Shown in pieces: positions 2,993 through 28,386 of a stretch of DNA of 31,876 nucleotides; positions within the stretch are counted from its first letter, which is position 1, and each line of letters begins with the position of its first letter. Both the position numbers and the translations under genes were made by a program. The notes below the pieces were generated by a model. That model did no database searches and was not told the origin of the DNA. It saw only the letters and a program-made list of their open reading frames with translations. Origin of the DNA: a virus; IMG/VR virus record IMGVR_UViG_3300021092_003951, positions 1 through 31,876 of that record; one strand, given 5' to 3'.

Positions 2993-3173
2993 CGGCATCA
3001 CAATGTTTCTCCATTTTTATTTGATTATCTCTGAGGATTCTATAGTTTTCTTGAGAGATGTCAAGTTTGAATTTTGTTCTTGGATATTTATAAAGAAGCC
3101 AGACCTTAAAGTCCGCGAGGGTTTGGGGAACCTTGTTTGCCGACCCAAACAGGGGGTTATATCTCCGTTCCAT
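2982..3173 (-). CDS. hypothetical protein (63 aa)
   Basis: This small basic protein starts MERRYNPLFGSANKV and has a central hydrophobic stretch (LADFKVWLLYKYP). I do not recognise it. The reading frame stays open upstream into the 304-aa gene, but the ATG at 3173 has a strong G-rich ribosome site (GGGGGGC) about 6 nt upstream and begins 32 bp after that gene stops, so I use this start. The ORF overlaps the next small membrane ORF by 11 bp. The dense packing suggests a real operon member. Confidence 0.6.
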   Translation of the reverse strand: MERRYNPLFGSANKVPQTLADFKVWLLYKYPRTKFKLDISQENYRILRDNQIKMEKHCDADEK

Positions 3174-3205
3174 TTGAGATGCCCCCCGTTTGGGTTGGCC
3201 TGAGA

Positions 3206-4120
3206 CTAGCTCAGAACTGTGTTTTGTTCCTCTGGGTTTGTGGACTTCTTCTTTTTGCCATCCAAAAAGTAGACCAACTCCTTCAATCCCGGATTCATCA
3301 TGTTTGCGGCGTTCGGCGTGTACTTGCCGTAGACGTTGAATGTTCCGTCGCTCTGCTTTTCTTGACGAAGAGAGATTTGGCTCATGTCGAATCCGTAGCG
3401 GCTTTGCCACTTCCAACGGAAGGAAAACCAGCCGTCAGTGTTTGTCACGCCACTTGACAGAAGGTGCTCAACCCGTGGGGCTGAATTGATGAACTGAAGG
3501 AACTTCGCTTCGTCCTTGCTGAGTGGGTACATCCCGGCATGTATGAGGGAGACCTTTGATGGCTTTTTGGCAACGGACTTTCGAGAATGCTTTGTCTTGG
3601 AGACAGCAGGCTTGCTCTCTTCGCGCGCTTCGATGCTGGTGCGCGGAGTGGCGTTGCTAATCACAATTTTTTCGTTCTTTGCAGCAACTGCGCCAAGCTT
3701 CGCCATTTTTTTCGCAAGTACTTTCATGCGATTTTGACCGAATTTGTTCATGGTCCCACCGGTGTATCTGGCATAGTGATTGATTTTGCCATTTTCGGAA
3801 CGGCGGACCATTTCAAAGCATGCTCCCATTTGGTAAAGACCAATGTCCTGTCGCTTCTTGTTGCCGGAGAAAACGAGGAACCACTTATTCGGATTCGACG
3901 TGAGTGTGAGGACCACAATGTCGAATTTGGAGAGTTTGACGGCTTCCTTGACGGGCGTGGGATTGTTCAGGTCGTCTGCCGCCTGTGGAATGATGATTCC
4001 CGACTCTTTGATTGCGGCGGAAATTGATTCAAGGGAAGAATCGCTCATTTTGCCGAATTGCTTCGTCGAGCGAAGAATGCTCTTCAGCTCTTGGGTTGGT
4101 GTGGGCTTATTCTTTTTCAT
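3206..4120 (-). CDS. hypothetical protein, 304 aa, basic middle region
   Basis: I do not recognise this protein. It has an N-terminal helical region (about 1-60), a mixed alpha/beta segment (about 65-125, FDIVVLTLTSNPNKWFLVF), a lysine-rich linker (about 165-190, with KTKHSRKSVAKKPSK), and a C-terminal segment rich in aromatics (about 220-285). The two globular segments both end in a G-K/R-x-N-x-Y-x-x-Y-T-like string, which may reflect an old internal duplication. A GGAG ribosome site precedes the ATG. It heads a minus-strand operon and is transcribed divergently from the H1-like gene at 4438. A nucleic-acid-binding role is only a guess from the basic linker. Confidence 0.75.
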   Translation of the reverse strand: MKKNKPTPTQELKSILRSTKQFGKMSDSSLESISAAIKESGIIIPQAADDLNNPTPVKEAVKLSKFDIVVLTLTSNPNKWFLVFSGNKKRQDIGLYQMGACFEMVRRSENGKINHYARYTGGTMNKFGQNRMKVLAKKMAKLGAVAAKNEKIVISNATPRTSIEAREESKPAVSKTKHSRKSVAKKPSKVSLIHAGMYPLSKDEAKFLQFINSAPRVEHLLSSGVTNTDGWFSFRWKWQSRYGFDMSQISLRQEKQSDGTFNVYGKYTPNAANMMNPGLKELVYFLDGKKKKSTNPEEQNTVLS

Positions 4121-4153
4121 CTTGTTTACTCCAGTTTTGATAGGTGATGATGA

Positions 4154-4167
4154 AACCCCTTTTGGGG
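4154..4167 (-). promoter_or_regulatory. short hairpin in the leader of the 304-aa gene
   Basis: On the minus strand a perfect CCCC-AAAA-GGGG stem-loop lies a few bases after the proposed transcription start and about 35 nt before the ATG. It is followed by TTTC rather than a long T run, so it is more likely a 5' stabilising hairpin than a terminator. Confidence 0.4.
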
Positions 4168-4175
4168 CACCATGG

Positions 4176-4205
4176 ACACTAGGGGGGATGTCAATAGAAA
4201 AGCAA
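4176..4205 (-). promoter_or_regulatory. candidate promoter for the 304-aa gene operon
   Basis: On the minus strand, TTGCTT (4200-4205) and TAGTGT (4176-4181) are separated by 18 bp. TAGTGT fits the actinobacterial TAnnnT -10 pattern, and the same hexamer lies upstream of the 8476 gene. A TTGACA (4189-4194) lies between them but has no well-spaced -10. Confidence 0.35.
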
Positions 4206-4249
4206 CCCCTTTTTAAAAATATTTTTTAGGCCCTCTTGGGGGTGCTTTT
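4198..4249. repeat. inverted repeat in the divergent intergenic region
   Basis: The arms AAAAGCA-A-CCCC (4198-4209) and GGGG-TGCTTTT (4239-4249) pair over 11 bp with one bulged A, around an AT-rich loop. The left arm overlaps the -35 of the minus-strand promoter. It could be an operator, or a terminator for read-through toward the plus strand because it ends in a T run. Together with the neighbouring promoter and leader calls it accounts for most of the gene-free stretch 4121-4437. Confidence 0.45.
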
Positions 4250-4270
4250 TAGTTGGGGGGGTGGGGGTAC

Positions 4271-4299
4271 TTGTAATGCCGGAATGTTATGGTTAATAT
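4271..4299 (+). promoter_or_regulatory. candidate promoter for the H1-like gene
   Basis: TTGTAA (4271-4276) and TAATAT (4294-4299) are spaced by 17 bp. The predicted start near 4306 would open the transcript at the first arm of the structured leader. An alternative -10 is TATAAG at 4302-4307. The match to consensus is only moderate. Confidence 0.35.
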
Positions 4300-4307
4300 G
4301 TTTATAA

Positions 4308-4393
4308 GTCTTCCAAGGCCCTCTTGGCACAGCAATACGCCATGAAGCTCCCCTCAACTGGTTGTGCATAACCAGAAGTGGGCCTGGAAGACG
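4308..4393 (+). ncRNA. possible structured leader RNA (three-way junction)
   Basis: An outer stem pairs GTCTTCCAAGGCCC (4308-4321) with GGGCCTGGAAGAC (4381-4393), with one bulged base. Inside it are a short TGGC/GCCA hairpin (about 4325-4342) and a perfect 6-bp CTGGTT/AACCAG hairpin with a 6-nt loop (4358-4375). The element ends 44 bp before the ATG of the lysine-rich gene and begins where a transcript from the candidate promoter would begin. I do not recognise it as a known riboswitch. It could be a leader, a small RNA or a protein-binding site. Confidence 0.4.
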
Positions 4394-4437
4394 AATACAA
4401 TCAAAACCAACAAACAAAACACTAAGGACAAACACAA

Positions 4438-4626
4438 ATGGCAACAAAGAAGAAGCCAGCCAAAAAGGCTCCGGCAAAGAAGAAGCCAGCCAAAAAGGCT
4501 CCGGCAAAGAAGAAGCCAGCCAAAAAGGCTCCGGCAAAGAAGAAGGCTCCAGCAAAGAAGAAGGCATCGGTCAAGACCGCATCTCGTCCACTCGCCCTCG
4601 TACAGAACGCTGTTTCAGTCGCCTGA
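4438..4626 (+). CDS. lysine/alanine/proline-rich histone H1-like protein
   Basis: This 62-aa protein is built almost entirely from a KKKPAKKAPA decapeptide repeated three times and then degenerate copies. A short non-repetitive C terminus (about 46-62, SVKTASRPLALVQNAVSVA) follows. Such tails resemble eukaryotic histone H1 and bacterial AlgP/HU-type extensions and should bind DNA or RNA electrostatically. The likely role is nucleoid compaction or neutralisation of DNA charge. The gene has a structured leader region and runs directly into the next ORF with no gap, so the two are co-expressed. A second, different lysine-rich protein is encoded at 28126-28386. Confidence 0.75.
   Translation: MATKKKPAKKAPAKKKPAKKAPAKKKPAKKAPAKKKAPAKKKASVKTASRPLALVQNAVSVA
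4446..4535 (+). repeat. three tandem 30-bp direct repeats inside the H1-like gene
   Basis: A 30-bp unit encoding KKKPAKKAPA occurs three times in tandem with what looks like exact nucleotide identity, then decays into partial copies. Exact identity suggests recent expansion by slippage or recombination, so copy number may vary between related phages. Confidence 0.8.
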
Positions 4627-4875
4627 ATGAAGAAAGCCGATGAATTTTCATTCGATGAATGGATGAAAATAGGCATTGAAAATAATTGGTGTGGCCCACC
4701 GGTTTGCTATGTGCACGACAGTCTTCCTCTCTCCGAGGAAGAACTTGACCTCATTGAGCAGGAAGACCCGTGCATACATATTGTCCGTCTTTACAACGAC
4801 AAAGAACACAAAAAACAGATTGAAGAAGCCCATTCGCCATCACAGTGGCGAAATATATTTACTAAAAAAGTATAA
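4627..4875 (+). CDS. conserved actinophage-type hypothetical protein
   Basis: This is an 82-aa acidic protein. The stretch W-C-G-P-P-V-C at about residues 21-27, the following acidic region (LSEEELDLIEQEDPC) and C-I-H-I-V-R-L-Y (about 55-62) recall a family of small hypothetical proteins common in actinobacteriophages. I make that link from memory of the pattern, not from a search. The three cysteines could be metal ligands. Its ATG follows the TGA of the H1-like gene with no gap, so translation is probably coupled. It converges with a possible small ORF on the other strand. Confidence 0.75.
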   Translation: MKKADEFSFDEWMKIGIENNWCGPPVCYVHDSLPLSEEELDLIEQEDPCIHIVRLYNDKEHKKQIEEAHSPSQWRNIFTKKV

Positions 4876-4880
4876 TCAAA

Positions 4881-4997
4881 TCAACCACAACATTTAAATC
4901 TTCCAAGTTTTTTGGGACGTTCTGGTTTTTGAATATCTTTAACGAAAACGACGGAGCGTTTTACTTTCGGAGTTTCTTCTTTTTTCTTTCTACCCAT
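4881..4997 (-). CDS. small basic peptide (38 aa), putative
   Basis: This short ORF begins MGRKKKEETPKVKRS and ends FKCCG. It fills the otherwise empty gap between the convergent 82-aa gene and the next minus-strand gene. GGGTGA lies about 10 nt upstream of the ATG as a possible ribosome site. The composition is highly charged and the C terminus carries a cysteine pair. No family is recognised, and the evidence is only the intact frame, its position and the ribosome site. Confidence 0.45.
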   Translation of the reverse strand: MGRKKKEETPKVKRSVVFVKDIQKPERPKKLGRFKCCG

Positions 4998-5044
4998 AGA
5001 CAAGTCACCCAATATATATTGTGCCACAAAATCAAGTAAATCTA

Positions 5045-10176: not shown

Positions 10177-10500
10177 TTAGTAAACAATCCCGGTTTCAGA
10201 AGAATCATATGTTCTTTTATCAGTTATATCTGTCATTTCGACACTGTCCAAAACAGAATCTCCAAACATTTCTTTAAAATACTGTCTCACCATATGAAGA
10301 AATATTTCTGCTCTTTCGAACTGATTTTCGGGTTGTGGAGATGTCGATATCAGAAGGGTTCCCCCAAGGGCCAAAACAACAGTTGGAGGCTCGTTCTCTA
10401 TCATGTATTCAGCAAAACTTCGTGGCGAATAGCTCCAGTAGCCCGGGGATTTTTCTATTCCTTGAACCTCCTGAGTCCCAGCACGCACCCTAATCAACAT
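10177..10500 (-). CDS. hypothetical protein (107 aa), coupled to the giant ORF
   Basis: The ATG overlaps the last 11 bp of the 4668-aa ORF in another frame, so translation is probably coupled. The protein starts MLIRVRAGTQEVQGIEKSPG. It has a hydrophobic beta-like centre (P-P-T-V-V-L-A-L-G-G-T-L-L-I-S, about 39-53) and an amphipathic helix (ERAEIFLHMVRQYFKEMF). I do not recognise it. Its coupling to the giant gene is the main clue: a small partner, chaperone or immunity-like protein for one of its enzymatic modules is possible but unproven. Confidence 0.7.
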   Translation of the reverse strand: MLIRVRAGTQEVQGIEKSPGYWSYSPRSFAEYMIENEPPTVVLALGGTLLISTSPQPENQFERAEIFLHMVRQYFKEMFGDSVLDSVEMTDITDKRTYDSSETGIVY

Positions 10501-13500
10501 TGTTAGCTCTTTCTTTGTTGTTTAAATACGATTTTTGAATTTCCTGAACTAATGGAGCTAACGCAAACACGACAACCGGGTGTGTTTCGTTAAGGTCACT
10601 ATCCGAAATTGACAGAGCGTCAAAATCAGCGCTATTTTCTTCAGATTTGATTGAATGATTAGCTCTTGGTTTTCTATTAGAAGCTTGAACGTATTCAAGA
10701 TACAGTTTCATGAACTTTTCTGCTCTCTCCGCGTATCTTAAGTTGTCAAGCGATACTGGTGAGCCAGCAAAAAGAAACCAAGTAGTAAAAGATTCGGCAA
10801 AATTTTCCACGTTATTTCTTTGTCCATACTCACTTGTTGGAAATGGAACATTATCAACCAACTCGCTAAAGAAATCCGGAATCCCTCCGGGAACGCTCTC
10901 CTCAATATCTCGGGCCGCAAAATCAAGGGCGTGAGCGAGTTCGTGTATTGTTATGGCATATGTAGCGCGTTGTTTTATGTTTTGATAATATTTCGATATT
11001 ACTTTCCTGCGCAGCTTTATTTGTTCTTCAGAGAAGTAAATCCCCCCATACTTGTCTTTCATGTCCTCTGTTGGTATTGGATTTTCCTTATAGTCCCATC
11101 CAAGTCTGGCGAAAAGGTCGTCCACCATTTTTGGCAATAAATATCTTTTGCTCAAAAAACCGTTTTCGCCTCTTTCGTTTGCGTAGAGCCTGGTTGCCCA
11201 CCGACTCCCCCTGTTGTACATGTCCGTATCCCTAGCGTCTTCCTCGCTTATGTTTGTGTCAATCCGGCTACTATAAATGCCAACATCTTTTGCTATCATA
11301 CTCATTAGTTCGTCAATATTAATGCGCACAACCCCACCGCTATTATCTTGTTTTGGTTTGTCTTTAAAGAAATTTTTCAAAAGTTCTTTCTCTTTGGCAT
11401 CCATGGTCTCTACACCACGTTTATCAAATTGTCTTTCCTCAAACGTGCCGTAATAACTAGGCCTAAGAGGGTCTTTTGAATTTTTTATTATTACCACTGG
11501 AAATTTTTCTTTGTCAATTTGAAGATTTTTTACAAAATCATCAATCGCTTGAAGTGAACCATAAATTGCTGGTTCTGACGACTTGGAAATTTTTTCATCA
11601 AAAACTATATGCAATCCGTGTGTTTTGTAAAAGTAATCTCCTATTTTCTCTGGCGTATTACCAAATTTTGTCTTAAGCTGTTTGATGGTCGCCATGTTTG
11701 GCAAATTTCTCTTATCGCGGCCATAATCAAACGAAATCGGACCATTTTTGATTATCGAATCGTTATCTCTTCTCCCGGAAGAAATTCTTTCGTCTGGCGA
11801 ATAATCTGGAAGATTTTTTAGTCTGCGCAATAATGACTCCGCCATGCCTCTATTCATTTCATATCTGTAATTGATGTAGTCGTTGGCGATGCTGAGGAGA
11901 CCAGAAGACATTTTGCTTGTATCTTTTGAAGCCATTAAGCGACCAATCTGTCTTCTTAATGAACTATCATCTGTGGCACCAGAAGAAAGTCTTTCGTTGG
12001 ATTTTGGAATAACGACAGCGCTATTTCCCGGCCTTGCTGCACTTGCGAGAAGCAAACCAACGGTGAATCCCATGTGTTCTCCATCAACGTCCCTGTCTCT
12101 GAAGAAAAGCGCCTGCATGCCAGTCGTAAGTATTTCGTAATGCGTATGGCGCTCATAAAATTTGTTTCCGTAAAACTTTCCTGCATATTCTTCGAGCCAC
12201 TCATCTTTTATTGCTACTTCATCATCTTTATAGTGTGTATTGCCACTAATTGTGCTTAATTTTTGACCTTTTTCTCCCTTTTTCCTTCTACTCATGAAGA
12301 ACAAATACTCAAGGGCGCTGACCCAGTTATTTGCGGACTCAATACCATGCACGGCTTCGTGTAATTGAGTGGACTCCCATGCCCTTCGCACCGCCACATC
12401 GGAACTGAGTATTTTATCCGTAGATGCGGTTTTTATTAACACCAATGAATTACCGTCACTGTCAAGCTTGCTGCTGGCGGATGCTCTACCCTTAAATCCG
12501 AGAAGAGAAACAAATTTTAGTTTTCCTCTACGTGTTAATTGATTTTGGCTTACTCCATTTATATCCCAAAAATCATCATCCTCTCGTATAAATTCTAAAA
12601 CTTCTGATTGCGAACCATCAATTAGTGATTTTGGCAAAAACGAGACAATTTTTGCTTTTGCATTCAAAACGGCGCGCAAAAGGTCATCGCCAACTCGACG
12701 CCTTTCCATTTCTCGCGGTGATTGCCTTATCTGTCTATACACTCTGAATCTGTCAAAGTATTTATCTTCATCAGATGCATCTTTTACGGATGGTACGTCA
12801 AGAGAAACATCATATATTTCCATATCTGTGTCGGTGTCAAATGGGTCCGAAAATACAACGCCAGCTGATTCGAGAACATCAATAACTTTTTGCTGTTGTA
12901 CTTTCAAAACTCGGTCGGCCGCCCAATTTTCAATTTGGGTAAACGTCATGCTTTCCCATTCGGCATTCAATTCGTCGATATCCATGTTGTTGTTTTCTGT
13001 TGGTCTAATTACTTCAGTTTGAAATCCGGCAGTGTCTAGTTTGTTTATTTTTTTGATTTCTTCAACAACCAATTGTCTTTCCTTATTTGATTTTTTTGCG
13101 GCATCAAACGAAAGTTTTTTAAGCTCAACTTTTCTTGTTCCGGCAGGCAATATTGTTTTATCTGGTAGCTCAATATCCGCTTCTGTTGCAACATCTAAGA
13201 CTTTTCTCTCCAATGATTGAACCGAGTCAGAAGCAAGGATTTTTTTAACTTGAGCTAGGAATATTGTTTTTCTATCTTCGGCTGGAATCGCTGTAAATGC
13301 TTTGAGATTTCTTTTTATATCTTGCACAAATGTTTGATATCTTTTGGGAAGTTCATGAAAATCAATTCTCTTTAGACTGGAAATTACTCCATCTTGGCTC
13401 CCATTATCTATTGATATTTCAATTTCCTGACCAAAATCATCAATGTCGATTAGGTAATGTTCATTTCCCGCTTTAATGCGTATGGTCGCCTCGCCAATAT

Positions 13501-16500
13501 ACGGTGTGATTGTTACATATGCATTTGAGTTGTCAATTTTTTCGTGTTTTTCTTTTAATTCTTTGTATTTTTCGTCAGTCATTTTCGAGAGCCCTTCTTT
13601 TCTTTCTCTTGCTCTCGTTTCTTTGGCTAAGTCCATTGATTCAATTCTGTGTTCTTTTTGTTCTTCTTTTGACATAAATGTGAAATTTGTAGTACCATAA
13701 AAAGGAATTTTCACTGTTCGTGAATATGATTGCAACAAGTCGTCATCGCTCATTTGCAGAAGTGGAATCGGTTTTCCTGTTTTTTCATCTGTTTCAAAAT
13801 TTCCAGCAAAAACATCACCCAACAGGGTTTGTGCCCCAAGTTCAGCGTTTCGCATTATCGCCAAAAGGTCACTCACGATACTTGGGTTTGAATCAACTAG
13901 GGATTTTTCTTCATCCGTAACATTCCCAACAAGTTCTGTTGGTTTTTGTTGATAGTAGAAACCGCGCCCATATTCTCCGTCTTCACCATGTCTCACAATC
14001 CTAAAAGGTCTACTTTCACCGCGTTTACCAATTTTTTTGAGTGATTTACCAACAAATTCAACCTTATGTAAACCGTATTCGTTTCGTTCTGTCACGTTTG
14101 ACACTAGGTTTCCAGCTAATTGCAGTTGGTGAATCGTGTCTGGACTGTCTACGTAGAAATGTGTTTCCGATTTCCCATAAGCCGCATCTCGCGATGATTC
14201 GACAAGCTTTATGGCATCTCTGAGACTTTCAACAAAAGTTTTTGCATCTACTGCGTATGGGATATGCTCCATTCTTACATGTTCAGCTCTTCGGCTTTTC
14301 CCCAAGGTAATGCCATATATCGCATCGGCGACCATTTCCGGGTCTCGGGCGCCGGTTTCTTGGTCTATTTTCTCGTCTAGTTTTTTGAGTTCCTTTGACA
14401 ATGCGTTTCGAACCGAAACACTTTTGACTATTCTTCTGGCAAGGGTGTCGCCATTCACTACGTCGCCAGAGTCTGTTTCGGCATGAAAAGCATCAATTTC
14501 GTCGTTTATCGCACCAATGACAAGTCCGCCAGCCTCAATAATTTGTGAAACATATTTTTGTTCTTCCGGTGTTAGTTTTGAAATTTCATCTATAACCTCA
14601 GAATCAGACAAGCCACCCATCGTATAAACTTCGTTCCCATTTATATCTTTTGTTTCAGTTAATCCAAGTCGTAAAAGTTCGTTATATCTTTTTTCTCTTT
14701 CTTTTTCTATATTTTTTATAGAATCGACTGGGCCCGTGGGAAATATTGAATGTATTATCTCTCTTGATTTTTTAACTTTTTCTGGTGATTTGAGTCTTGA
14801 TTGTTTTGCTTCTAGGGACTCCCCGGACCTTAGCCGGTTCTCAATCGCTTCTTCTGTTTCACCGTAAAATTGAGACCGTTGAGTAATGCTCGACTCTCTG
14901 TCGAGTGAATCTTCTTCGTCTTTTCCGGACCAGTATATAAATCTTTCAATAAAATCGCGCTTTTCTTTGTCGGTTTTGAAACGGTATTGAAGATTTAATT
15001 CTGGAAAAATTTCTCTATGGAATTTAATCATTTGTTTTGAAATTCCGTTATTTCTATGCCATGCTTTTATCTTTGCTTCTTCAACTGTCCATTGAGCTGG
15101 AAACTTCTTAACATCATTGCCATACTCTTGTCCAGAAATAACTTCCGGAAAATCTGCAGCTTCTCGGTAATCAACATTAATCCAGCCGATTAATCCATTT
15201 ATGTGTCTAGAGCTGTCGTGATGTGGGCTATCTGGGTCCATATATGTTCTTATAACATTGTCCCAATTTCTGAAAGGAACTTTTTTCTTTTTTAAGTCTT
15301 TTTTAAGTTCATTTACGTCTATTGCGACAACTCGTCGATAACCATCAAGAACAAGAGCAATAAGATATTTTTTGCCGGCATCGTTTGTGTATTCAACAAA
15401 TTTTGCTTTATTGAAAACTTCTCGCCCAAATGCAACCTTGCTATTGATATTTGATGGATGCATGGGCTGGTCTTGTTTTCTGAGCTCCGCATTAAAAACA
15501 CTTGGATTGCCCTTGATGTATTCTTTGAATCTTTCCCACACATCAAAACCGTCATCTGGTCCTGTTATTTCAAAATACATTGTTCCAGCTTTTTCGGTTG
15601 TCCCATATCTCTCAACAAATTGTTTTATTCTTTTATCGCTTGAAGGCACTTGTTTAAATTTTGGTGTTTTTCTCTTTCCCGAAGAAATTCTTTCTATTGC
15701 ATCTTTTGCATCAATCAAAAAACCAGCTTTTTCCGATTCGCGACCAGCCGCAATTAAATTGGTTAATATTTTTATTCTTTCTGGTTCAATTGTCTCGGCA
15801 TTAAAATATTGTGTTGGCATTGGTTCCGGAAGGTCTCTATTCATGTTCTCGGCTATTGCTCTTTTTACACCACGTCTTTCACGCGTTTCATAAACAACAT
15901 ACCCACCCGGAACTCGACGTAATTCTGGTTTAGCTTTTCTGTCTGCTGCATTCCATCTGACTTTGTTTGCATCCGGAAGGTCATCGCCAATAGTGTTATC
16001 TAGTATTTCTGCAACTTTTTGCAATTCTGGAATATCGTAATATCTGTCCATTCCCTTAAACTTGTTAAACCAGCCATTTCCGTTTCTGTGTATGCCAAAA
16101 AATGGATACCATTTTCCGGGAGTTACACCATCTTTGGGGTTTTTCCCACTGCTTCTATAAAAAGGAACGCGCACGCCATTTACTCTTACGACAACTATTT
16201 GCCTACCAGCAACAGTAAGCAGCGGAGAAGTAATTACTTCTCCATTTGGTTGCGTATGGTTAAACCAAACAGCATTAAGTCTTGATTTTATTATCCTGTT
16301 TCCTGCGTCATTTATTTTTTTGATATCTTCTTTGCTTGGTCTTGGATATCTTTCTCTTATCCAGTCAGATTCGCTTTCATACACCGCGAGCGGTATGCGT
16401 TGGCCGTTTTTGAGCCTAAAATAGTGAACTTTTCTTTCTTTTTCGTCTCTCCCAACAATTCTTTCTTTTCCGTCTCTCCCAACAATGACGTCTCTGCCCG

Positions 16501-19500
16501 AGGCAATTCTGTTTGTTTCTTTGGAAAGTCTTTCATAATATTTGCTGACATCATTTGCATTAAATTCGTGCTGAGCACGAATCATCGCATCAGCAAGCCC
16601 CCTATTCACGTGCTCTCTATCAACAGATAAATCAAACATCGATAAAAAGTCTTTTGAATTTTCATTTGCTGTTAGTTTTGCAATCGGTTTTTCTTTTTTA
16701 ATCATTTGATTTAACTGTTGGCGCGTTGGTCTTTCCGAAGGTGAGCCAGTAATATACTTTTTCAACTGCTCTCCGGAAAATACAGAAACACGCAAACCGT
16801 CATCGGAATCAAAGATAAAATAATCTTCAAAATTATTTGGTCTCACTTCATATCTAACTCTTCTGACATTTTTGCTTTTTTCTAATTCAATTCTTCTTGG
16901 TGTGCCTATTTGTCGAAGTTTATGATTCCCGGTTGTTTGAATATTTGTTAAGCGTTGTCTCATTCGCGAGTCAAAGTTTTTGATTGTTTCACGGCTTACG
17001 TCTTTTGAGCCAGTCGCTCCAGATTTTATGAACGGGTCTTCATTTTTATTAAGTTTTGAAAGAATGACTGCATTTTGTTGTCTTTCTTCTGATGCAAAAA
17101 ATCTTGCCTTGTCAATAAACTCGGGATTTTCTGGATAAATGTCTGCAATGTCAAATCTAATTTCATCATCCGAAATTACTGCACTTAGCGCTGCTTTCGA
17201 AAAGTCTGTTTTCCCAGAAGAAAACTCTTTTTCTCCGTTAAATCTTGTCCAGGCAATAAAATCGTCCAAAAATTCTTCGGTTGGTTCACCATTTTTATCG
17301 AACAAATTCAAATTAGAAAGTTTAAAACCTTTTTCATTTCTTGGTACTGCTACGCCTTCGGTTATTTCACCGTCTGCACCGATGCCAATTTTGTAATCGT
17401 TTTTATCAAAATCGAATAAATCTGTTTTGTTATCTTCGTAAAACTCCACAGGTATGTTTTTTGCAAAACTCAATATTTCTTCGTCGTTCATGTTTTCAAT
17501 TAACCGCGAATTGAATCTTTCTGCTCCGGAGGAGATTCTTTCATCCGCTGGTATCAGTTCAAATTCTTTTTTCCTTAGCGGTTTAACAAAATCATCATCG
17601 ATTTTTTCAAAAAAACGAACCGAGCCACGAGGAAGACGCGACCCAGCTTCATCTTGATTTAGAGAAGGGGTTAGTCTCATTGCTTTTTTAATATCTTCGC
17701 TGCTTGGACTATTAAAACCCTTCTTTGTTATAACTATTGATTGTCTTGGTTTTCCAAGCAGAACAATCTCGTGTTCGTTTAGACAACCAAATCCAGTTAG
17801 TGGTATGGCCAAAATGTCCTCAACTGGAACGACGGAGGATAAAAGTATTCCAGTTCTTGATTTTGAGCCACCTGGGGTTTCAAACACATCACCGCTAAAT
17901 CTGTTGGCTACGTCAATACTTGTCGACCAAGACGATAACGGCCTCATGGAAACTGACATATTTTCGGGAGTTCCGTTTTCGAGCATTTCTTTTGACAATT
18001 CCGAAATCGGAATGCTCATTCCCCTGTATACCGTTACGTGACTTATTCCTTTTTCCCTAAAATATTGTTGCGTATTTTCATGCATTGCTTTTAATACGTT
18101 TGACAAAATTGATTTTGCTTTATCTGGAAGGTTTAGTGTTTCGTCATTTTCGTAAATGCTCCGCAAAACACCCATAATCGTTCCCTTTGGCGCAGTTGAG
18201 TCGGTCAACATATCATTTATTTCTGTTGCACCGTTTAAGAAAAACAATTCTTTAGCGATTTCTTGGGAAAGAGTTGATAACAGAACTTTGTTTGAACTTC
18301 CAGCCCAAGACCTTATTAGGTTTGAAATAATGACAGTCTTTAAGGCTTCTTGACCCTCTTCTGTTCTTGCGTCAAAACTTGGTGAATCGGTTGAGCCATT
18401 AAATGCATCTTTCACGTTTGCAAAAAAGGCTCGAGATGTCTTTGGACCCGAAGAAAATATATCTGTTATTGAAAGAATCGACGAATCTTCGTCCATTTCA
18501 TTTGGAGCGCTTAGCTTCCCAAATTCTGCACTCGACGCCTTTATTTGTTCTTCAAGAATACTGAGTCTATCTCTTGTGTGTTCCGTTGTGAAAAATCTAT
18601 CAATGACTACTGCTGCAGACTTTTCGTCCAATCCCCCAGTTTTTAGGTCAACTGTTTTCATTAATCCTTTTGGATAAAGACTTGGGTCATAATCCGGAAG
18701 CGGCTGATTTGTTTTTCTAAAAAAGTAGTGAAGCATTCCATTTTTTGATTCATAAACATCAACTTTAATGTCTTCAATTTTTGGATTATTTTCTCCAAAA
18801 AGTGGATGAATAATTGTTTTTATGTTTACAAGTCTTCTTCGCCTTAAACCGGTTTTATAATCCGTGAAAACTGCATTTGTTGTCTTGCCAGTGTATTTGT
18901 TCGGCGGATTTGGTACGGAGCCCCTTGGCATAAGCTCATCACCACCAAACTCTCTCGCTGAATTTTCTTCTGCAGCGATTATGAGGTCAACATCTTTTAT
19001 GTCGGGAGTTGGTAATCCATCTCCTAGTTCTCCTTCTAGATATCCGTTCTCGCCCCACTCAAACATTGCTTGAAATTGAGCAACTTTTATTTCTTTTCCT
19101 GTAGTTGCATCTTTGACAACCCCGGAATATGAATCCGATAATCCATTATTTATTCCCCACGCTGGTTCCGACATTCCGTGGCGCTCTTTCGAATCCGGCC
19201 AGGCGGAGTATTGAATCGTATAATTTCCAAAACTTCTTTTTCCTCTGTTTGGATTTCTGGCGTCTGAAAAAATACTGCTAAAAATTAGAAGTGCGTTTGT
19301 GTCAAATTCCAAATCATTTTTGCCATAGCCAATCATCGACATTTCGTCATCAGACAAATTTCCAACTGTTTTGAGTATCGAAGCGAGTCTCTCCCTGTGT
19401 TGTTCTGGTATCCAGGGTTGTAATTCTGTTGGATATTCATATTCTTTTTTGGAAGATGATGGTGGATACTTAACAAACAATACGTCGTGAATCAATCTTT

Positions 19501-22500
19501 CAATAAGAAGTTGCGCATGGTCTGCTTTTGATAAACGGTAATTATTCCAGTCGGATGTGATTGATGTATCCCCTTTGATGGAATCCCAGAATTCCAAACC
19601 CTCTTTTAGCTCTGGAAATATTGAAAGTATTCTTGTTTTATCGATTGTATTGTCGTCCCCAATTAACGAGGACAGCCCCCTGAGGAGTTTTTGTCGCGCT
19701 ACGTTGGTGTTTGTTGTAGCAAAAAACGTTTTTTGTTGTTTTTTAGAAATTAATTCGCCGGTGTGTTTATCTATCTTAAATCCGTATTCGTAATCGGGTA
19801 AATTTAATTCTTTTCCTGGTTTGGTTATATCTAAAAGCTCATCAAGAAACGCTGCGACAGATGTTTCGGAGCTGCCAACATCATCTGGCAAAAGACCGAA
19901 TATTGATGCTGCGCCTTTGGAAAGACCATCCTCGTCAGACAAATGTAGCTTGTCTGTAATTTTAAAAATTTTGCGCACTTCATCCCTGTATTTTTCGGGA
20001 AATAAATCAATAACGTCTTTTCTTTTAAAAATCAAAGAGGATACGTCGTGAACGCTTTCATCTAAGTGTGCAACCACTCCGGCTACGACTGCTCGTTTTG
20101 CGGAACTTTCGACAGTTGTTTTCCTTAAACCATTACTATCGACACCGCCATCTAGGTCTTCAGCTTCAGAAATTATGTCCTTCATTATCGATATTCCGGA
20201 ATCTGGTCCCAAAACAGATGAGTTTATTTCCTCTCCGTCTTTTGACAAAGTTTCAGAATCGTAATTTCTGGAATCAAATTTTCCCGTTACGAGAGCTTCA
20301 ATCCATGTGTCTTCACGAGTTGCGGAATTGGTTGGGTCAGATTTTCTGTATTTTTTGTTAACAAACTTTTTTCTTGCATTTTTAAATGCTTTGTCTAATG
20401 CAATTTTTGCACGAGACGAACCACCAGACGAAATTCGAGACGTGGATTCGTTATCGTTGTGTATGAGGTCCAATACATGCTTGCCGTATTTCTCGTTAAG
20501 GTCTTCCCGGCGCAGTACCGTCTTAAGATAGTTATTTAAATTTACGTCATTTGAAGCTTCGTCATAATTTGTCAAAAGGTCGTATATTCTGTCCTTTAAA
20601 GTGCGAAAATTTTGTTCCCGATGACCAGACGATAAATCCCCAAACCGCGGGTTGGGCATAACCTTAATGAATGATGGTCTTTTATTGTTTCTCAAAATTA
20701 TTTCTTCTTTGTCCGAAGAACCCATTCCCAAAAAATGCGTGGAAAAAACTTCGTCTATCGGAACAATCTTTTTAAGAATTATCGGTTCGGTTTTTTCTGG
20801 GTTCTTTCGGTTGGCGTAAGAATCTCCATATACTTTCCATATGTAGTCAAGATTATTTGTCCAAGATGAAAGTTCATCTTCATCAAGTATGCCAAAAAAT
20901 GTATCTTCAACTTCACGATTGAGAGTATAGTCATCGCTGGAATATTTTCTAGGCGTTCTTATTCCTACATTCAATAGAATTTCATCAAATCCACCCGAGG
21001 AATAGTATATTTTTTCTTCTATATCTTTATCTTGTTCCATCAACTTGTAAACAGCAAGATGCGTGATTCCCTTTCCCTGTAGGTAGTCTTGCGTTTTCTC
21101 ATGTATTGTTTTTACAACATCTCTAACGAAATCCATCTGCCGTTGTTCTTTAAATTCGCCAGCATCATTTGAAAATAATTGAGAAACTGCTTTCTTGAAG
21201 ATTTTTGATATTGGGTTCTCGGTTGAGTTATTCCACTCATCCAAAAGTGAAAGTATAAGCATTGTTTTGAGCACCTGAGAGCCAGTTTCTGAATTTGCAT
21301 TAAATTTGGCAAAATAGCGATTGTTTATTATTTCATCTCGTTTTTGTGCCCTGACGCTCCGCTCGAGACCATAGCCAAATCTTTTGCTCATCGAGTCTGT
21401 GCTTCGCTTTAATCTGGCAGCTTCTCTTAACATCTCTGCGTGTCTTGCAGATTTATCGAGTTCAGCTCTGTTCGTTCGAAACAGTCCATCTGACTGCAGG
21501 CCCCAAAGATTTCCGGAAATTTCAGATTTTATGGGTTTTAACTTTAGATATTCGTGTTCATTGTCTATGGATTTATCGGTAACAATGTTGTCTATCGGTG
21601 AAAAAGATGATTTCAGCCCAATAGACGAAAAATAATTTCTAGAATCGTCTGACCTCCCAAATCCAGAAATAGGAACAAGAAAATCTCCAGACTCAGCAAG
21701 TTCTGTTTGTAATTTTTTAAATCTTTCTGTATTCGGAAAAAAACTTTCGTCAAAAAGTTCAAAAAAATCTGCTGGGCTAAAATCTAGTGAATCGGCTATA
21801 TTTTTGGCAAAAAAGAATTCTGTTCCATATTCATTCGGATTTGTTGTTTTATTAAATATTCTTACCGTTTTACCGAGTTCGTCAACAAACGAAAAGTTTG
21901 CACTATTCGATTTTGATAATTCAAGTTTATCTTTAGCAATTTCTTTTGCAAGAATTTTGTTTTTGGGAGATACTCCATTGGTGTATTTGAAATTTGGTTC
22001 TGGCGCATATTTTTCTGCAAAAGACCTTCTATATGTTTCACGGCCAAGCGCATCTATTCTTCCTGAAGAAAGTCTTTGTTTTCGTTCCTTTTTTGTTAAA
22101 TAGTTTATTTTTTTCTTTCTAATTGCTATTTCTTTCGCGATGTTACTTTCCCATGGTTCGTCTTCCATGCCGTCGCCGCCGAGAAGTATTTTTGAGTCTT
22201 TTCTAAGTTTTTCATTTAGCGCTGAATTCTGTATGTTCCTGTTTGGGTGAAGAACTGCAGAAATTCCTTCAGCAATCATTTCGTTTAGTGAAACGTGAGC
22301 GTATGAGGTTATTGTTCTTGGTGCTGCCGGGTCATCATTTATATTTGTCCCATCTTCATGAAGCTTTATGAGATTCGGATTTGTCGTATGGGAGCGATAT
22401 TGTTGAGCAATTGACATTGCGCTTGCATATTGTGGGTCTGTTATGTCTCCAGAGCCATAGTAAATTCTGTTTTTGCCCTTCCCCATTGTTTCACCGTCTC

Positions 22501-24496
22501 TAATTGCTCTCCAGTGAAGCCAGTGTGACCACTCATGCAAAATTCTTCCAGCTATTGAAGTATCAATATGTGCATCACCCGAAACAACCACATGATTCTG
22601 TCCCATAGTTAGCGGTATTGTTTTATTTTCATTTCCGATTCTGTCATTCATTGTTTTTGGATGAAAAACGGTCAGGTCAATAAATGGGGACAGTCGTCCA
22701 GAAGTGTATGGTCGCTCAGAATAACCACGTTGTTGTATTATTTTGTCCATAAATTCTTGAACTTCTTTTCTTGATTCCCAATTTTCTATTCCTGCCTGTG
22801 ACCAAATCGCATACATTGGGGCGCCGTGTTTTTCAAAAGCCCACCGCATATATGGATTAGACTCAAGGGAAAGTTTCAGCATATTTTTCATCGTTTGTGT
22901 AGCTTCAGGCGATGAATCAATGTCGTCCCATGGATTTCTATCAAGATGATTTTGCCAATACTTTCTAAAAGCATCAACTATTTTTCGATTTGATTCTGTT
23001 CTTGCTCCTGGGGCTATATCGTCAAGCCACATTTCAAATAGTTCATTATTTGACGACGGAACAAGCACGTCAGCCATCTGTTCTGGCGTCATTCCTTCAA
23101 GCCAGTCGTTTCTGTCTCTTCTTATTTGTTTTCCTTGATGGAGAATGCTGTCATCTCCATATTTGTATTTTTTTCTTCTGTGTTGTTCTATTGCTTCGAC
23201 TTCTTCTGCTGAAATTTTTACTATTTTTTTCTTATCAATACCAGAACTAAGTCTCTCGTCTTCAATATTGTTTTTAAGCCAATTTTCTTTATCTATTTTA
23301 AATTTTTCAATTTTCGTATCAAATGACTTTTTATCTGCCAAGATTTTTGCATCTCTTTTTTCTTTACTTAGCAGGTCTGTCGACCAGTTATTTTCTATGG
23401 CTCTATCAATTATCGCCTGCATAACTTCTGCTGCAGCTCTTGCATCCTCTGTTGCGTAGTGGTGTTTTTTGCCCAAATCAACGCCTAAATATTTTGTTAT
23501 ATCAGCTAAGCCGTTTGATGGGACTTTGTTTCCATCGATAATCTTGTATGGTCCATCTTGTGTTTCTGGGTTCCATTTTGGCAAAACCATGTCTGAAATT
23601 TCTTTTGTGTCGATGTATCCATACGGTCTCCAACTAATTCCAGAATCCTCTAGAGCATCTTCCAAAACGTCTTTATCAAAACTGGCGTTTTGAACACCGA
23701 ATATTGCATCTTCTCCAGCAAAATCAACCAATTGTTTATGCGCGTCAGCTATGGACATTTGTGTTGAAAGCCACTGGTCTGTTATCGGATTTCCATCAGC
23801 GTCTCGCAAATTGTCCCTTGACCATGGCTCTAATTGCATATTCGGATTCATGAACAAATTCAATTTGCCAGTAATTTTTCCATTTTTTACTTTTACCAAA
23901 CCAAGCTGTAGTGGATTTCCGTTGTGTGATGGTTTTCTGTATTCATCGAAAATCAATCCAGTTGTTTCGTAATCGAGCCAAATAATCTCTCTGTCTTTGT
24001 ATATATCACTAAATTCTTTCCATGTTTTTGCCCTTCCAAATATCTCCTCTGCCCCACCAACGAAAGCTCCATACGTTGGCTTTCTTGGCCAACTTGGTTT
24101 TTTCGCACCGGAGGAAAGTCTGTCTGGCGGGGTTTCTTTTCGTGGGCTTGTATTTTTGTCTTTGGGGGGACGTGAAGCTTTTGGTTTTTTGTTTTTTTTG
24201 TCTAATAGTCTTCTTATTCCAACCCAAACTGGATTTTTTGTTCCCTCGTCAGACCATCCATCATTATCTGGGTCAAGTCTTGAGCCAGTTGGCTCGTTAT
24301 ATCCCGGAATTCCACCAGTTGGTATATTTATATCTATTCCTCTTCGTCGCCTACCCCTTCTGCCCCCAAGGTTCGGTCTATCAATGAGTCTTCTTGCTCC
24401 ATAAGAGACAGCCCTGCCTAATAAATTGCTGTCTTTTGTTTCTGGCGATTCTGTTTCGCGCGCAACACGTGAGTCGTCATTTTTGTCATCAAACAT
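10490..24496 (-). CDS. giant multi-domain polyprotein (4668 aa) with recurrent RxSSG motif
   Basis: One uninterrupted ORF encodes 4668 residues. Modules in order: a basic N terminus with a D-P-D-N-D-G-W-x-D-E-G string (76-85); a DnaQ-like exonuclease (165-365); metallopeptidase 1 (HEWSH 654-658); a degenerate ADP-ribosyltransferase (1070-1280); a canonical ADP-ribosyltransferase (2046-2255); metallopeptidase 2 (HEAVH 4046-4050); and metallopeptidase 3 (HELAH 4518-4522). Large segments between (about 1360-2040, 2325-3990) match nothing I know. A motif near [E/D/N]-R-[L/I]-S-S-G recurs about ten times, with G at 130, 419, 812, 1358, 2324, 2667, 2940, 3225, 4173 and 4241. There is no signal peptide or membrane segment. 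The ATG has no Shine-Dalgarno, and TATTAT lies 8 nt upstream. I infer a polyprotein of effector or virion enzymes, possibly processed at the motif. It could instead work uncut as one giant virion protein. Confidence 0.9.
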   Translation of the reverse strand: MFDDKNDDSRVARETESPETKDSNLLGRAVSYGARRLIDRPNLGGRRGRRRRGIDINIPTGGIPGYNEPTGSRLDPDNDGWSDEGTKNPVWVGIRRLLDKKNKKPKASRPPKDKNTSPRKETPPDRLSSGAKKPSWPRKPTYGAFVGGAEEIFGRAKTWKEFSDIYKDREIIWLDYETTGLIFDEYRKPSHNGNPLQLGLVKVKNGKITGKLNLFMNPNMQLEPWSRDNLRDADGNPITDQWLSTQMSIADAHKQLVDFAGEDAIFGVQNASFDKDVLEDALEDSGISWRPYGYIDTKEISDMVLPKWNPETQDGPYKIIDGNKVPSNGLADITKYLGVDLGKKHHYATEDARAAAEVMQAIIDRAIENNWSTDLLSKEKRDAKILADKKSFDTKIEKFKIDKENWLKNNIEDERLSSGIDKKKIVKISAEEVEAIEQHRRKKYKYGDDSILHQGKQIRRDRNDWLEGMTPEQMADVLVPSSNNELFEMWLDDIAPGARTESNRKIVDAFRKYWQNHLDRNPWDDIDSSPEATQTMKNMLKLSLESNPYMRWAFEKHGAPMYAIWSQAGIENWESRKEVQEFMDKIIQQRGYSERPYTSGRLSPFIDLTVFHPKTMNDRIGNENKTIPLTMGQNHVVVSGDAHIDTSIAGRILHEWSHWLHWRAIRDGETMGKGKNRIYYGSGDITDPQYASAMSIAQQYRSHTTNPNLIKLHEDGTNINDDPAAPRTITSYAHVSLNEMIAEGISAVLHPNRNIQNSALNEKLRKDSKILLGGDGMEDEPWESNIAKEIAIRKKKINYLTKKERKQRLSSGRIDALGRETYRRSFAEKYAPEPNFKYTNGVSPKNKILAKEIAKDKLELSKSNSANFSFVDELGKTVRIFNKTTNPNEYGTEFFFAKNIADSLDFSPADFFELFDESFFPNTERFKKLQTELAESGDFLVPISGFGRSDDSRNYFSSIGLKSSFSPIDNIVTDKSIDNEHEYLKLKPIKSEISGNLWGLQSDGLFRTNRAELDKSARHAEMLREAARLKRSTDSMSKRFGYGLERSVRAQKRDEIINNRYFAKFNANSETGSQVLKTMLILSLLDEWNNSTENPISKIFKKAVSQLFSNDAGEFKEQRQMDFVRDVVKTIHEKTQDYLQGKGITHLAVYKLMEQDKDIEEKIYYSSGGFDEILLNVGIRTPRKYSSDDYTLNREVEDTFFGILDEDELSSWTNNLDYIWKVYGDSYANRKNPEKTEPIILKKIVPIDEVFSTHFLGMGSSDKEEIILRNNKRPSFIKVMPNPRFGDLSSGHREQNFRTLKDRIYDLLTNYDEASNDVNLNNYLKTVLRREDLNEKYGKHVLDLIHNDNESTSRISSGGSSRAKIALDKAFKNARKKFVNKKYRKSDPTNSATREDTWIEALVTGKFDSRNYDSETLSKDGEEINSSVLGPDSGISIMKDIISEAEDLDGGVDSNGLRKTTVESSAKRAVVAGVVAHLDESVHDVSSLIFKRKDVIDLFPEKYRDEVRKIFKITDKLHLSDEDGLSKGAASIFGLLPDDVGSSETSVAAFLDELLDITKPGKELNLPDYEYGFKIDKHTGELISKKQQKTFFATTNTNVARQKLLRGLSSLIGDDNTIDKTRILSIFPELKEGLEFWDSIKGDTSITSDWNNYRLSKADHAQLLIERLIHDVLFVKYPPSSSKKEYEYPTELQPWIPEQHRERLASILKTVGNLSDDEMSMIGYGKNDLEFDTNALLIFSSIFSDARNPNRGKRSFGNYTIQYSAWPDSKERHGMSEPAWGINNGLSDSYSGVVKDATTGKEIKVAQFQAMFEWGENGYLEGELGDGLPTPDIKDVDLIIAAEENSAREFGGDELMPRGSVPNPPNKYTGKTTNAVFTDYKTGLRRRRLVNIKTIIHPLFGENNPKIEDIKVDVYESKNGMLHYFFRKTNQPLPDYDPSLYPKGLMKTVDLKTGGLDEKSAAVVIDRFFTTEHTRDRLSILEEQIKASSAEFGKLSAPNEMDEDSSILSITDIFSSGPKTSRAFFANVKDAFNGSTDSPSFDARTEEGQEALKTVIISNLIRSWAGSSNKVLLSTLSQEIAKELFFLNGATEINDMLTDSTAPKGTIMGVLRSIYENDETLNLPDKAKSILSNVLKAMHENTQQYFREKGISHVTVYRGMSIPISELSKEMLENGTPENMSVSMRPLSSWSTSIDVANRFSGDVFETPGGSKSRTGILLSSVVPVEDILAIPLTGFGCLNEHEIVLLGKPRQSIVITKKGFNSPSSEDIKKAMRLTPSLNQDEAGSRLPRGSVRFFEKIDDDFVKPLRKKEFELIPADERISSGAERFNSRLIENMNDEEILSFAKNIPVEFYEDNKTDLFDFDKNDYKIGIGADGEITEGVAVPRNEKGFKLSNLNLFDKNGEPTEEFLDDFIAWTRFNGEKEFSSGKTDFSKAALSAVISDDEIRFDIADIYPENPEFIDKARFFASEERQQNAVILSKLNKNEDPFIKSGATGSKDVSRETIKNFDSRMRQRLTNIQTTGNHKLRQIGTPRRIELEKSKNVRRVRYEVRPNNFEDYFIFDSDDGLRVSVFSGEQLKKYITGSPSERPTRQQLNQMIKKEKPIAKLTANENSKDFLSMFDLSVDREHVNRGLADAMIRAQHEFNANDVSKYYERLSKETNRIASGRDVIVGRDGKERIVGRDEKERKVHYFRLKNGQRIPLAVYESESDWIRERYPRPSKEDIKKINDAGNRIIKSRLNAVWFNHTQPNGEVITSPLLTVAGRQIVVVRVNGVRVPFYRSSGKNPKDGVTPGKWYPFFGIHRNGNGWFNKFKGMDRYYDIPELQKVAEILDNTIGDDLPDANKVRWNAADRKAKPELRRVPGGYVVYETRERRGVKRAIAENMNRDLPEPMPTQYFNAETIEPERIKILTNLIAAGRESEKAGFLIDAKDAIERISSGKRKTPKFKQVPSSDKRIKQFVERYGTTEKAGTMYFEITGPDDGFDVWERFKEYIKGNPSVFNAELRKQDQPMHPSNINSKVAFGREVFNKAKFVEYTNDAGKKYLIALVLDGYRRVVAIDVNELKKDLKKKKVPFRNWDNVIRTYMDPDSPHHDSSRHINGLIGWINVDYREAADFPEVISGQEYGNDVKKFPAQWTVEEAKIKAWHRNNGISKQMIKFHREIFPELNLQYRFKTDKEKRDFIERFIYWSGKDEEDSLDRESSITQRSQFYGETEEAIENRLRSGESLEAKQSRLKSPEKVKKSREIIHSIFPTGPVDSIKNIEKEREKRYNELLRLGLTETKDINGNEVYTMGGLSDSEVIDEISKLTPEEQKYVSQIIEAGGLVIGAINDEIDAFHAETDSGDVVNGDTLARRIVKSVSVRNALSKELKKLDEKIDQETGARDPEMVADAIYGITLGKSRRAEHVRMEHIPYAVDAKTFVESLRDAIKLVESSRDAAYGKSETHFYVDSPDTIHQLQLAGNLVSNVTERNEYGLHKVEFVGKSLKKIGKRGESRPFRIVRHGEDGEYGRGFYYQQKPTELVGNVTDEEKSLVDSNPSIVSDLLAIMRNAELGAQTLLGDVFAGNFETDEKTGKPIPLLQMSDDDLLQSYSRTVKIPFYGTTNFTFMSKEEQKEHRIESMDLAKETRARERKEGLSKMTDEKYKELKEKHEKIDNSNAYVTITPYIGEATIRIKAGNEHYLIDIDDFGQEIEISIDNGSQDGVISSLKRIDFHELPKRYQTFVQDIKRNLKAFTAIPAEDRKTIFLAQVKKILASDSVQSLERKVLDVATEADIELPDKTILPAGTRKVELKKLSFDAAKKSNKERQLVVEEIKKINKLDTAGFQTEVIRPTENNNMDIDELNAEWESMTFTQIENWAADRVLKVQQQKVIDVLESAGVVFSDPFDTDTDMEIYDVSLDVPSVKDASDEDKYFDRFRVYRQIRQSPREMERRRVGDDLLRAVLNAKAKIVSFLPKSLIDGSQSEVLEFIREDDDFWDINGVSQNQLTRRGKLKFVSLLGFKGRASASSKLDSDGNSLVLIKTASTDKILSSDVAVRRAWESTQLHEAVHGIESANNWVSALEYLFFMSRRKKGEKGQKLSTISGNTHYKDDEVAIKDEWLEEYAGKFYGNKFYERHTHYEILTTGMQALFFRDRDVDGEHMGFTVGLLLASAARPGNSAVVIPKSNERLSSGATDDSSLRRQIGRLMASKDTSKMSSGLLSIANDYINYRYEMNRGMAESLLRRLKNLPDYSPDERISSGRRDNDSIIKNGPISFDYGRDKRNLPNMATIKQLKTKFGNTPEKIGDYFYKTHGLHIVFDEKISKSSEPAIYGSLQAIDDFVKNLQIDKEKFPVVIIKNSKDPLRPSYYGTFEERQFDKRGVETMDAKEKELLKNFFKDKPKQDNSGGVVRINIDELMSMIAKDVGIYSSRIDTNISEEDARDTDMYNRGSRWATRLYANERGENGFLSKRYLLPKMVDDLFARLGWDYKENPIPTEDMKDKYGGIYFSEEQIKLRRKVISKYYQNIKQRATYAITIHELAHALDFAARDIEESVPGGIPDFFSELVDNVPFPTSEYGQRNNVENFAESFTTWFLFAGSPVSLDNLRYAERAEKFMKLYLEYVQASNRKPRANHSIKSEENSADFDALSISDSDLNETHPVVVFALAPLVQEIQKSYLNNKERANNVD
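10697..11299 (-). other. polyprotein module: metallopeptidase-like domain 3
   Basis: Approximately residues 4400-4600. H-E-L-A-H (H4518, E4519, H4522) lies in a helix, I-T-I-H-E-L-A-H-A-L-D. A downstream acidic helix, N-V-E-N-F-A-E-S-F (E4564, E4568), could give the third zinc ligand, the layout of gluzincin-type zinc peptidases. It follows the last motif copy (G4241) and forms the C-terminal module. Whether it cleaves the polyprotein itself or a host target cannot be read from sequence. Confidence 0.75.
12047..12499 (-). other. polyprotein module: metallopeptidase-like domain 2
   Basis: Approximately residues 4000-4150. H-E-A-V-H (H4046, E4047, H4050) is preceded by S-T-Q-L. A glutamate-rich helix, W-L-E-E-Y-A-G (E4102, E4103), lies 52-53 residues later and could supply the third ligand. 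The domain ends just before the motif copy with G4173. The sequences around its HExxH differ clearly from those of modules 1 and 3. Confidence 0.7.
16432..16485 (-). repeat. 27-bp tandem duplication inside the giant ORF
   Basis: Two adjacent 27-bp units (16432-16458 and 16459-16485) differ at one base. They encode the near-repeat V-G-R-D-G-K-E-R-I / V-G-R-D-E-K-E-R-K right after the RIASG motif. This is an in-frame micro-duplication of recent origin. Confidence 0.75.
17732..18361 (-). other. polyprotein module: canonical R-S-E ADP-ribosyltransferase
   Basis: Approximately residues 2046-2255. The three ART hallmarks are in order and well spaced: V-Y-R-G-M with R2158, S-S-W-S-T-S with the S-T-S at 2191-2193, and N-E-H-E-I-V-L with the E-x-E pair E2241/E2243. 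E-x-E is typical of arginine-specific ADP-ribosyltransferases. The enzyme would transfer ADP-ribose from NAD to a protein; T4-type phages use such enzymes on host RNA polymerase and other targets soon after entry. The target here is unknown. The module ends about 70 residues before the motif copy with G2324. Confidence 0.85.
20657..21289 (-). other. polyprotein module: degenerate duplicate of the ADP-ribosyltransferase domain
   Basis: Approximately residues 1070-1280. It aligns by eye with the downstream ART. L-K-T-x-x-I-x-x-L-x-x-x-W is shared in the first helix. H-E-K-T-Q-D-Y-L-Q-G-K-G-I-T-H mirrors H-E-N-T-Q-Q-Y-F-R-E-K-G-I-S-H. The catalytic residues have changed: R to K1151 (V-Y-K-L-M), S-T-S to T-N-N (S-S-W-T-N-N), and E-x-E to K-x-E (K1263, E1265). 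Only the last glutamate remains, so catalysis is doubtful. It may be a structural or substrate-binding copy. Confidence 0.75.
22217..22699 (-). other. polyprotein module: metallopeptidase-like domain 1
   Basis: Approximately residues 600-760. G-R-I-L-H-E-W-S-H-W-L-H has the HExxH pair H654 and H658 with catalytic E655. S-L-N-E-M-I-A-E-G (E739, E743) about 85 residues on could hold the third ligand. It lies between motif copies with G419 and G812. The domain is preceded by a helical region (about 460-600) I cannot place. Confidence 0.75.
23402..24004 (-). other. polyprotein module: DnaQ-like DEDDh 3'-5' exonuclease
   Basis: Approximately residues 165-365, flanked by motif copies with G130 and G419. 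Exo I is W-L-D-Y-E-T-T-G with D175 and E177. Exo II is G-V-Q-N-A-S-F-D with D274. Exo III is H-H-Y-A-T-E-D-A with H346 and D351. All four acidic residues and the histidine are in place, so it should be active on DNA or RNA 3' ends. An isolated exonuclease module inside a virion-type polyprotein, away from any polymerase, is unusual. Confidence 0.88.
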
Positions 24497-28125: not shown

Positions 28126-28386
28126 CTATCCGAGAAGTTTTTTAAAAAACTTCTTTAGCCAGCTACTCGATGAATACGAGCCAACATTTGTACTCGCCAC
28201 AACAGCGCCATTTGTGGATTTCTGTGAATCCCCCAACGCGCTGCGCAGGGACGCTGCGGAGTCGTTAATCGAAATTTTTGCTTCGGGTTTTTTTGTTGCT
28301 GACGACTTCTTTTTGGCGGCTGGTTTTTTTGCAGCAGTTTTTGAAGTTGTCGTCTTTTTTGGTGTTGATTTCTTATTTTCTGTCAT
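28126..28386 (-). CDS. lysine-rich H1-like protein with amphipathic C terminus
   Basis: This 86-aa protein has a first third made of K/A/T/P repeats (K-T-A-A-K-K-P-A-A-K-K-K) like a histone H1 tail. A serine-rich, low-complexity middle follows. The last ten residues (S-W-L-K-K-F-F-K-K-L-L-G) form a short amphipathic cationic helix, which could touch membrane or protein. It differs in sequence from the H1-like protein at 4438 and has no exact DNA repeats. It is the first gene of the minus-strand operon containing WhiB, divergent from the 28485 gene. Confidence 0.65.
   Translation of the reverse strand: MTENKKSTPKKTTTSKTAAKKPAAKKKSSATKKPEAKISINDSAASLRSALGDSQKSTNGAVVASTNVGSYSSSSWLKKFFKKLLG

Follow-up and report, generated by a model that had tools for sequence, protein, structure and literature searches.

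Stem-loops at the 5′ end of an mRNA, of the type found in ompA and papA, are reportedly mRNA stabilizers, as described by Emory et al. in 1992 and by Bricker and Belasco in 1999. The leader of Bacillus subtilis aprE is said, in the title of a paper, to owe its stability to a 5′ stem-loop and ribosome binding. The leader analyzed here belongs to a phage gene for an H1-like, lysine-rich protein and lies in a virus record of 31,876 bases, all of which we call the window. It resembles the aprE leader in its 5′ stem-loop and differs in host and gene. With ompA and papA it shares a stem-loop no more than 2 bases from the 5′ end (a predicted distance here), an unpaired linker, and a ribosome site; it differs in that the element is in a phage leader, is larger and branched in the window, and has a predicted stabilizer role.

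In an excerpt from one report, the ompA effect is ascribed to a nonspecific stem-loop together with the ribosome site (PMC7148126); that the sequence of the stem-loop is unimportant is a further point of likeness. The same excerpt has RNase E as a major nuclease in mycobacteria too. Extracts from two other papers state that B. subtilis RppH requires at least two unpaired 5′ bases (PMC3997798) and put further mRNA-stabilizing stem-loops in 5′ untranslated regions on record (PMC7509114). T4 gene 32 is a precedent of another kind, with a structured leader ahead of a phage gene for a DNA-binding protein (PMC3014915, in extract); the targets of its product, gp32, are a pseudoknot and A+U-rich repeats that cover the ribosome site. 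No gp32-type operator was seen in the phage H1-like leader when it was looked at without a pseudoknot-search tool.

RESULTS

Layout of the locus

The intergenic region 4121 to 4437 is flanked by a 304-aa gene on the minus strand and, on its other side, by the genes for the H1-like protein and an 82-aa protein on the plus strand. The 82-aa protein has one relative encoded by Mycobacterium phage Aminay (38%) and another from a MAG of an actinobacterium, and the host is therefore probably an actinobacterium; we infer a freshwater origin for the virus. The parts of the locus are as follows.

4155 to 4168, minus strand: short hairpin GCCCC-AAAA-GGGGU (−7.8 kcal/mol), opening 8 nt beyond the −10 box, where transcription of the divergent 304-aa gene is predicted to begin
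4176 to 4205, minus strand: candidate divergent-gene promoter TTGCTT-18-TAGTGT, from sequence comparison; spacing kept in related loci L002, L003, and L004
4271 to 4276, plus strand: −35 box TTGTAA of the predicted H1-like promoter, the top sigma70-like site
4294 to 4299, plus strand: −10 box TAATAT, spacer of 17, predicted +1 at 4307
4308 to 4321, plus strand: 5′ arm of the outer stem, with one bulged A, opening 9 nt after the −10 box
4358 to 4375, plus strand: inner perfect 6-bp hairpin CTGGTT-GTGCAT-AACCAG, from sequence and fold
4380 to 4392, plus strand: 3′ arm of the outer stem, from the fold
4393 to 4423, plus strand: A-rich linker from the stem-loop to the Shine-Dalgarno sequence, predicted unpaired
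4424 to 4428, plus strand: Shine-Dalgarno sequence AAGGA, predicted unpaired
4438 to 4626, plus strand: H1-like lysine-rich protein, 62 aa, with a weak match to Pfam HC2 (18.9 bits versus a cutoff of 40)
4627 to 4875, plus strand: 82-aa protein (WCGPPVC family), whose open reading frame (ORF) starts directly after the H1-like stop codon

Several other features were seen. A G-rich tract, GGGGGGGTGGGGG, lies between the two divergent promoters (4236 to 4268); the tract at the corresponding place in L004 (about 3845 to 3885) is C-rich on the same strand. The direct repeat AGGCCCTCTTGG has copies at 4228 to 4239 and 4316 to 4327, 88 bases apart, the first being inside a terminator-like site upstream of the H1-like promoter. 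A terminator-like hairpin at 4833 to 4852 falls inside the end of the 82-aa coding sequence (SPSQWRNIF), and L002 and L003 have a similar one. Almost half of the window is a single minus-strand ORF of 4668 aa (10490 to 24496).

Promoter and fold of the leader

Sigma70-like sites were scored blind to structure over the 230 bases that precede the ATG. The best site, TTGTAA-17-TAATAT (4271 to 4299), puts the predicted +1 one base before the outer stem, so that the stem-loop would start almost at the 5′ end of a transcript with this predicted +1. Sites of equal score occur about 0.9 times per kb on the plus strand of the window, and a simpler consensus promoter scan did not list this one. An earlier note on this DNA had placed the outer stem where transcription from a plausible promoter would start; the blind scan, together with similarly placed hairpins in relatives (below), agrees with it.

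The outer stem (4308 to 4321 with 4380 to 4392) has 13 base pairs and the bulged A, which can be placed to give 8+5 or 7+6 pairs at equal energy. The earlier note had this stem enclosing two hairpins. The outer stem and the perfect 6-bp hairpin stand; the remaining inner elements are two weak 3-bp stems, which are not reliable because the ensemble frequency of the minimum free energy structure is 0.066. Comparison of folding energy with that of shuffled sequence, proposed in the same note, bore the structure out: the minimum free energy of 4308 to 4393 is −37.0 kcal/mol versus a mean of −22.3 for shuffles (standard deviation, 3.2; z = −4.6), and 0 of 200 shuffles were as good. Because the ends of this segment were the earlier reader's choice, we rescanned with unselected ends in 86-nt windows. 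For the stretch from promoter to ATG (4271 to 4437), no shuffle of 400 was as stable as the best 86-nt window, and here too stability is above chance; with the whole G-rich intergenic region (4121 to 4437) as background, 12 of 400 shuffles held an equally stable 86-nt window. Thus, the significance of the fold with unselected ends depends on the background chosen. With a hypothetical later start at 4316, the fold would still have −23.9. The element does not stand out in a fold scan of the whole window in 40-base steps, whose frames cut it, and an ungapped inverted-repeat scan missed the bulged outer stem.

In the predicted fold of 4304 to 4437, both linker and Shine-Dalgarno sequence are unpaired, leaving the ribosome site accessible. 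A terminator or attenuator was rejected, as no U-run follows 4392 and the terminator scan lists none there; so was a stand-alone small RNA, with no terminator after the element. The only frames overlapping the element lie next to the repeats, which disposes of a gene running through it.

At gathering scores, Rfam gave only tRNAs in the window and nothing in the element; at E values up to 10, it added only a chance snoRNA match outside the element (E = 1.1). No prior report on the element was found in a narrow literature search.

Related loci

A search of IMG/VR for the 82-aa family gave 166 loci, the best 80 of which were kept; by a simple rule, a strongly lysine-rich ORF lies just upstream in 9 of these 80. 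A start motif brought in L014 and L020/L027/L030, and L086 was added from a contig of an actinobacterial MAG, the one match for the 82-aa gene among genome contigs. Related loci were also sought via the 304-aa gene and a 63-aa gene. Loci that do not differ over the last 100 bases were counted once (L009 with L010, L064 with L068, and L020 with L027 and L030). Seven loci whose lysine-rich ORF next to the 82-aa gene contains less lysine (L017, L018, L019, L021, L022, L026, and L028) were left out; only L017 and L019 among them appeared in the promoter scan, and the leader test was run on none.

Only one other contig of the window's lineage was found (L001/L006/L211), and it is identical to the window here. 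The other lineages retain the H1-like and 82-aa genes, not the leader sequence. An H1-like protein pattern matched 599 stretches, none of which was confirmed. Among at least 79 starts listed for a MATKKK-start DNA pattern, only L117, which is the same contig as L009, has the window's Lys/Ala/Pro type; L129, L131, and L146 were set aside by eye, without a leader test. DNA patterns for two linkers gave no new lineage, L209 being an unrelated chance match to the linker pattern. DNA similarity against 50,697 phage records gave only short chance-like pieces outside the element.

Hairpin position across lineages

With the top-ranked promoter, the window, L007, L008, L014, L039, and L064 have a hairpin that opens 7 to 9 nt downstream of the −10 box, at the place expected for +1; L053 and L020 have no hairpin at the predicted +1. 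L009 and L086 show this spacing with a promoter ranked fourth and second, respectively, and their top-ranked site has no significant terminal hairpin. We took the energy of a hairpin 7 to 9 nt after the −10 box of the blind promoters and compared it with 400 shuffles per leader. The P values were 0.002 (window), 0.015 (L014), 0.045 (L039), 0.052 (L008), 0.060 (L064), and 1 (L053 and L020). Fisher's method, with one row per lineage and L007 not in the final run, gave a combined P of 0.0005 for the H1-like leaders and 0.010 minus the window. Rows for L009 (P = 0.020) and L086 (P = 0.100) were run but excluded, as were L003 and L009 for the divergent gene.

An earlier variant of the test, with the top-ranked promoter, gave P values of <0.05 in 4 of 10 H1-like leaders (window, L008, L014, and L039). 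Of 49 control leaders, taken from other genes in these loci, 4 had P values of <0.05; the control used crude gene calls, and just two H1-like leaders (L064 and L086) passed its filters. Stable terminal hairpins per se are not rare, since 12 of the 49 controls had energies of −6 or lower.

L009 and L086 share an identical stretch of 43 nt, which begins with the hairpin's first base and ends just short of the ATG, while four of the 7 bases that separate the −10 box from the hairpin differ. The two copies in L007 together with L008 keep all 10 outer pairs (13 of 13 pairs overall); two 5′-arm positions vary C/U opposite G, and there are no two-sided changes. Because the 3′ arm is invariant, a shuffle control cannot tell this retention from chance. 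A block of about 91 bases (promoter and hairpin) upstream of the H1-like gene is tandemly duplicated in L007/L003.

No leader motif or shape is common to the lineages, and hairpins at equal position are unrelated. By sequence comparison, the fixed feature is position at the predicted +1, not sequence or shape. The possible "new structured leader RNA" of the earlier note, taken as a family with a conserved fold, finds no support, given unrelated hairpins in lineages of the same gene order and no Rfam match.

The window has a second lysine-rich HC2-like gene (28126 to 28386, minus strand), whose best predicted promoters lack a strong terminal hairpin.

The divergent 304-aa gene and its neighbor

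Upstream of the 304-aa gene, the window, L002, L003, and L004 have TTGYTT-18-TANNNT, with a small hairpin beginning 7 to 8 nt later; a weaker version of 3 bp is present in the divergent leader of L009 and L086. Most of the divergent-gene hairpins are weak, with energies from −2.4 to −7.8. The combined P over four lineages was 0.027, a weaker version of the H1-like pattern, with promoters picked by conservation after the pattern was noticed; the blind scan does not place the window's own promoter, TTGCTT-18-TAGTGT, among its four best sites.

The longest inverted repeat of the window (3139 to 3199, minus strand; 19-base arms; z = −4.4) spans the start of the 63-aa gene, which follows the 304-aa gene. 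Its loop holds the ATG, and its 3′ arm is coding (NPLFGSAN). L004 (about 4900 to 5000) has the same layout with a different sequence (NILFGSAD); from window and L004, this start-site hairpin looks to be kept by compensating changes in the noncoding arm. L002 and L003 have no 63-aa gene there and carry another strong hairpin instead.

DISCUSSION

Computation yields a fold, a predicted promoter, and same-place hairpins in several relatives of differing sequence. Judging by these models, the H1-like mRNA very likely starts with a folded hairpin, as do those of several relatives. We propose, at a probability of about 0.52, that the stem-loop shields the H1-like mRNA from 5′-end-dependent decay in the manner of ompA and papA. 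The real +1 would be at about 4307, about one base before the strong stem-loop (4308 to 4392), which would be followed by an unpaired A-rich linker, the Shine-Dalgarno sequence, and the start codon. Decay dependent on the 5′ end, by an RppH-type pyrophosphohydrolase, RNase E, or RNase J, would be left without a free 5′ end, and the message of a presumably abundant DNA-binding protein would in consequence have a longer half-life, while the linker would keep the ribosome site open. Because the hairpins differ between lineages yet sit at the predicted +1, a stabilizer fits and a specific protein operator fits poorly. A counterpoint is that a branched structure with a 13-bp stem exceeds what a plain stabilizer needs.

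Capping might be systematic in this phage group, affecting both divergent mRNAs across lineages, with a stem-loop at +1 selected while sequence and size drift; the class would be defined by promoter-relative position and be invisible to family-based RNA searches. This extension of the stabilizer reading is tentative and, in our judgment, rather doubtful.

It is unlikely, if still worth weighing, that the element has no function and combines a chance stable fold in a GC-rich leader with a chance promoter agreement. The 12 of 400 whole-intergenic shuffles that fold equally well, the frequency of promoter-like sites at that score, and the lack of a hairpin in two lineages (L053 and L020) all favor chance; however, the position agreement replicates minus the window, and control leaders reach P values of <0.05 at a rate close to that of chance (4 of 49).

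Quite improbable, in our view, is that the element trims read-through transcripts to a mature 5′ end, as an insulating structure or as a site for processing by RNase III or another enzyme. The long double-stranded stem would suit it, and strong hairpins occur at other gene junctions of the phage group, including L002/L003, but the L009 and L039 hairpins have just 5 to 6 bp, and the predicted promoter directly upstream would put the hairpin at the 5′ end already. The odds are similarly long for a DNA-level element, in which the inverted repeat would serve as an operator overlapping the start site or belong to an origin. The stem is also an inverted repeat in DNA, and the divergent intergenic region has G-rich tracts, but relatives do not keep the sequence; moreover, the variable outer-stem positions in L007/L008 keep G-U pairs, tolerated in RNA and unneeded by a DNA site, although two positions prove little.

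Least probable, and very much so, is autogenous control, an option raised in the earlier note, in which the H1-like protein would bind the leader and repress translation of its own message, in the way that T4 gp32 works through the pseudoknot in its leader. The layout is that of gene 32 (PMC3014915, in extract), but we found no evidence for such control: a protein of low-complexity Lys/Ala/Pro sequence is no obvious candidate for specific RNA binding, the Shine-Dalgarno sequence is about 30 nt off in an unpaired linker, and the absence between related phages of a kept operator motif, or of a common leader sequence or shape, argues against a specific operator.

The stem-loop is thus probably an ordinary cap that slows mRNA decay rather than a new regulatory RNA, a likely instance of an already known kind, and current ideas of RNA regulation would stay unchanged. 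The analysis predicts where transcription of the H1-like protein gene starts and how its leader is built. If the stabilizer reading is true, such elements must be sought by promoter-relative position, because neither sequence nor covariation finds them, and an uncultured phage group, probably of actinobacteria, would join the known users of 5′-terminal stem-loops.
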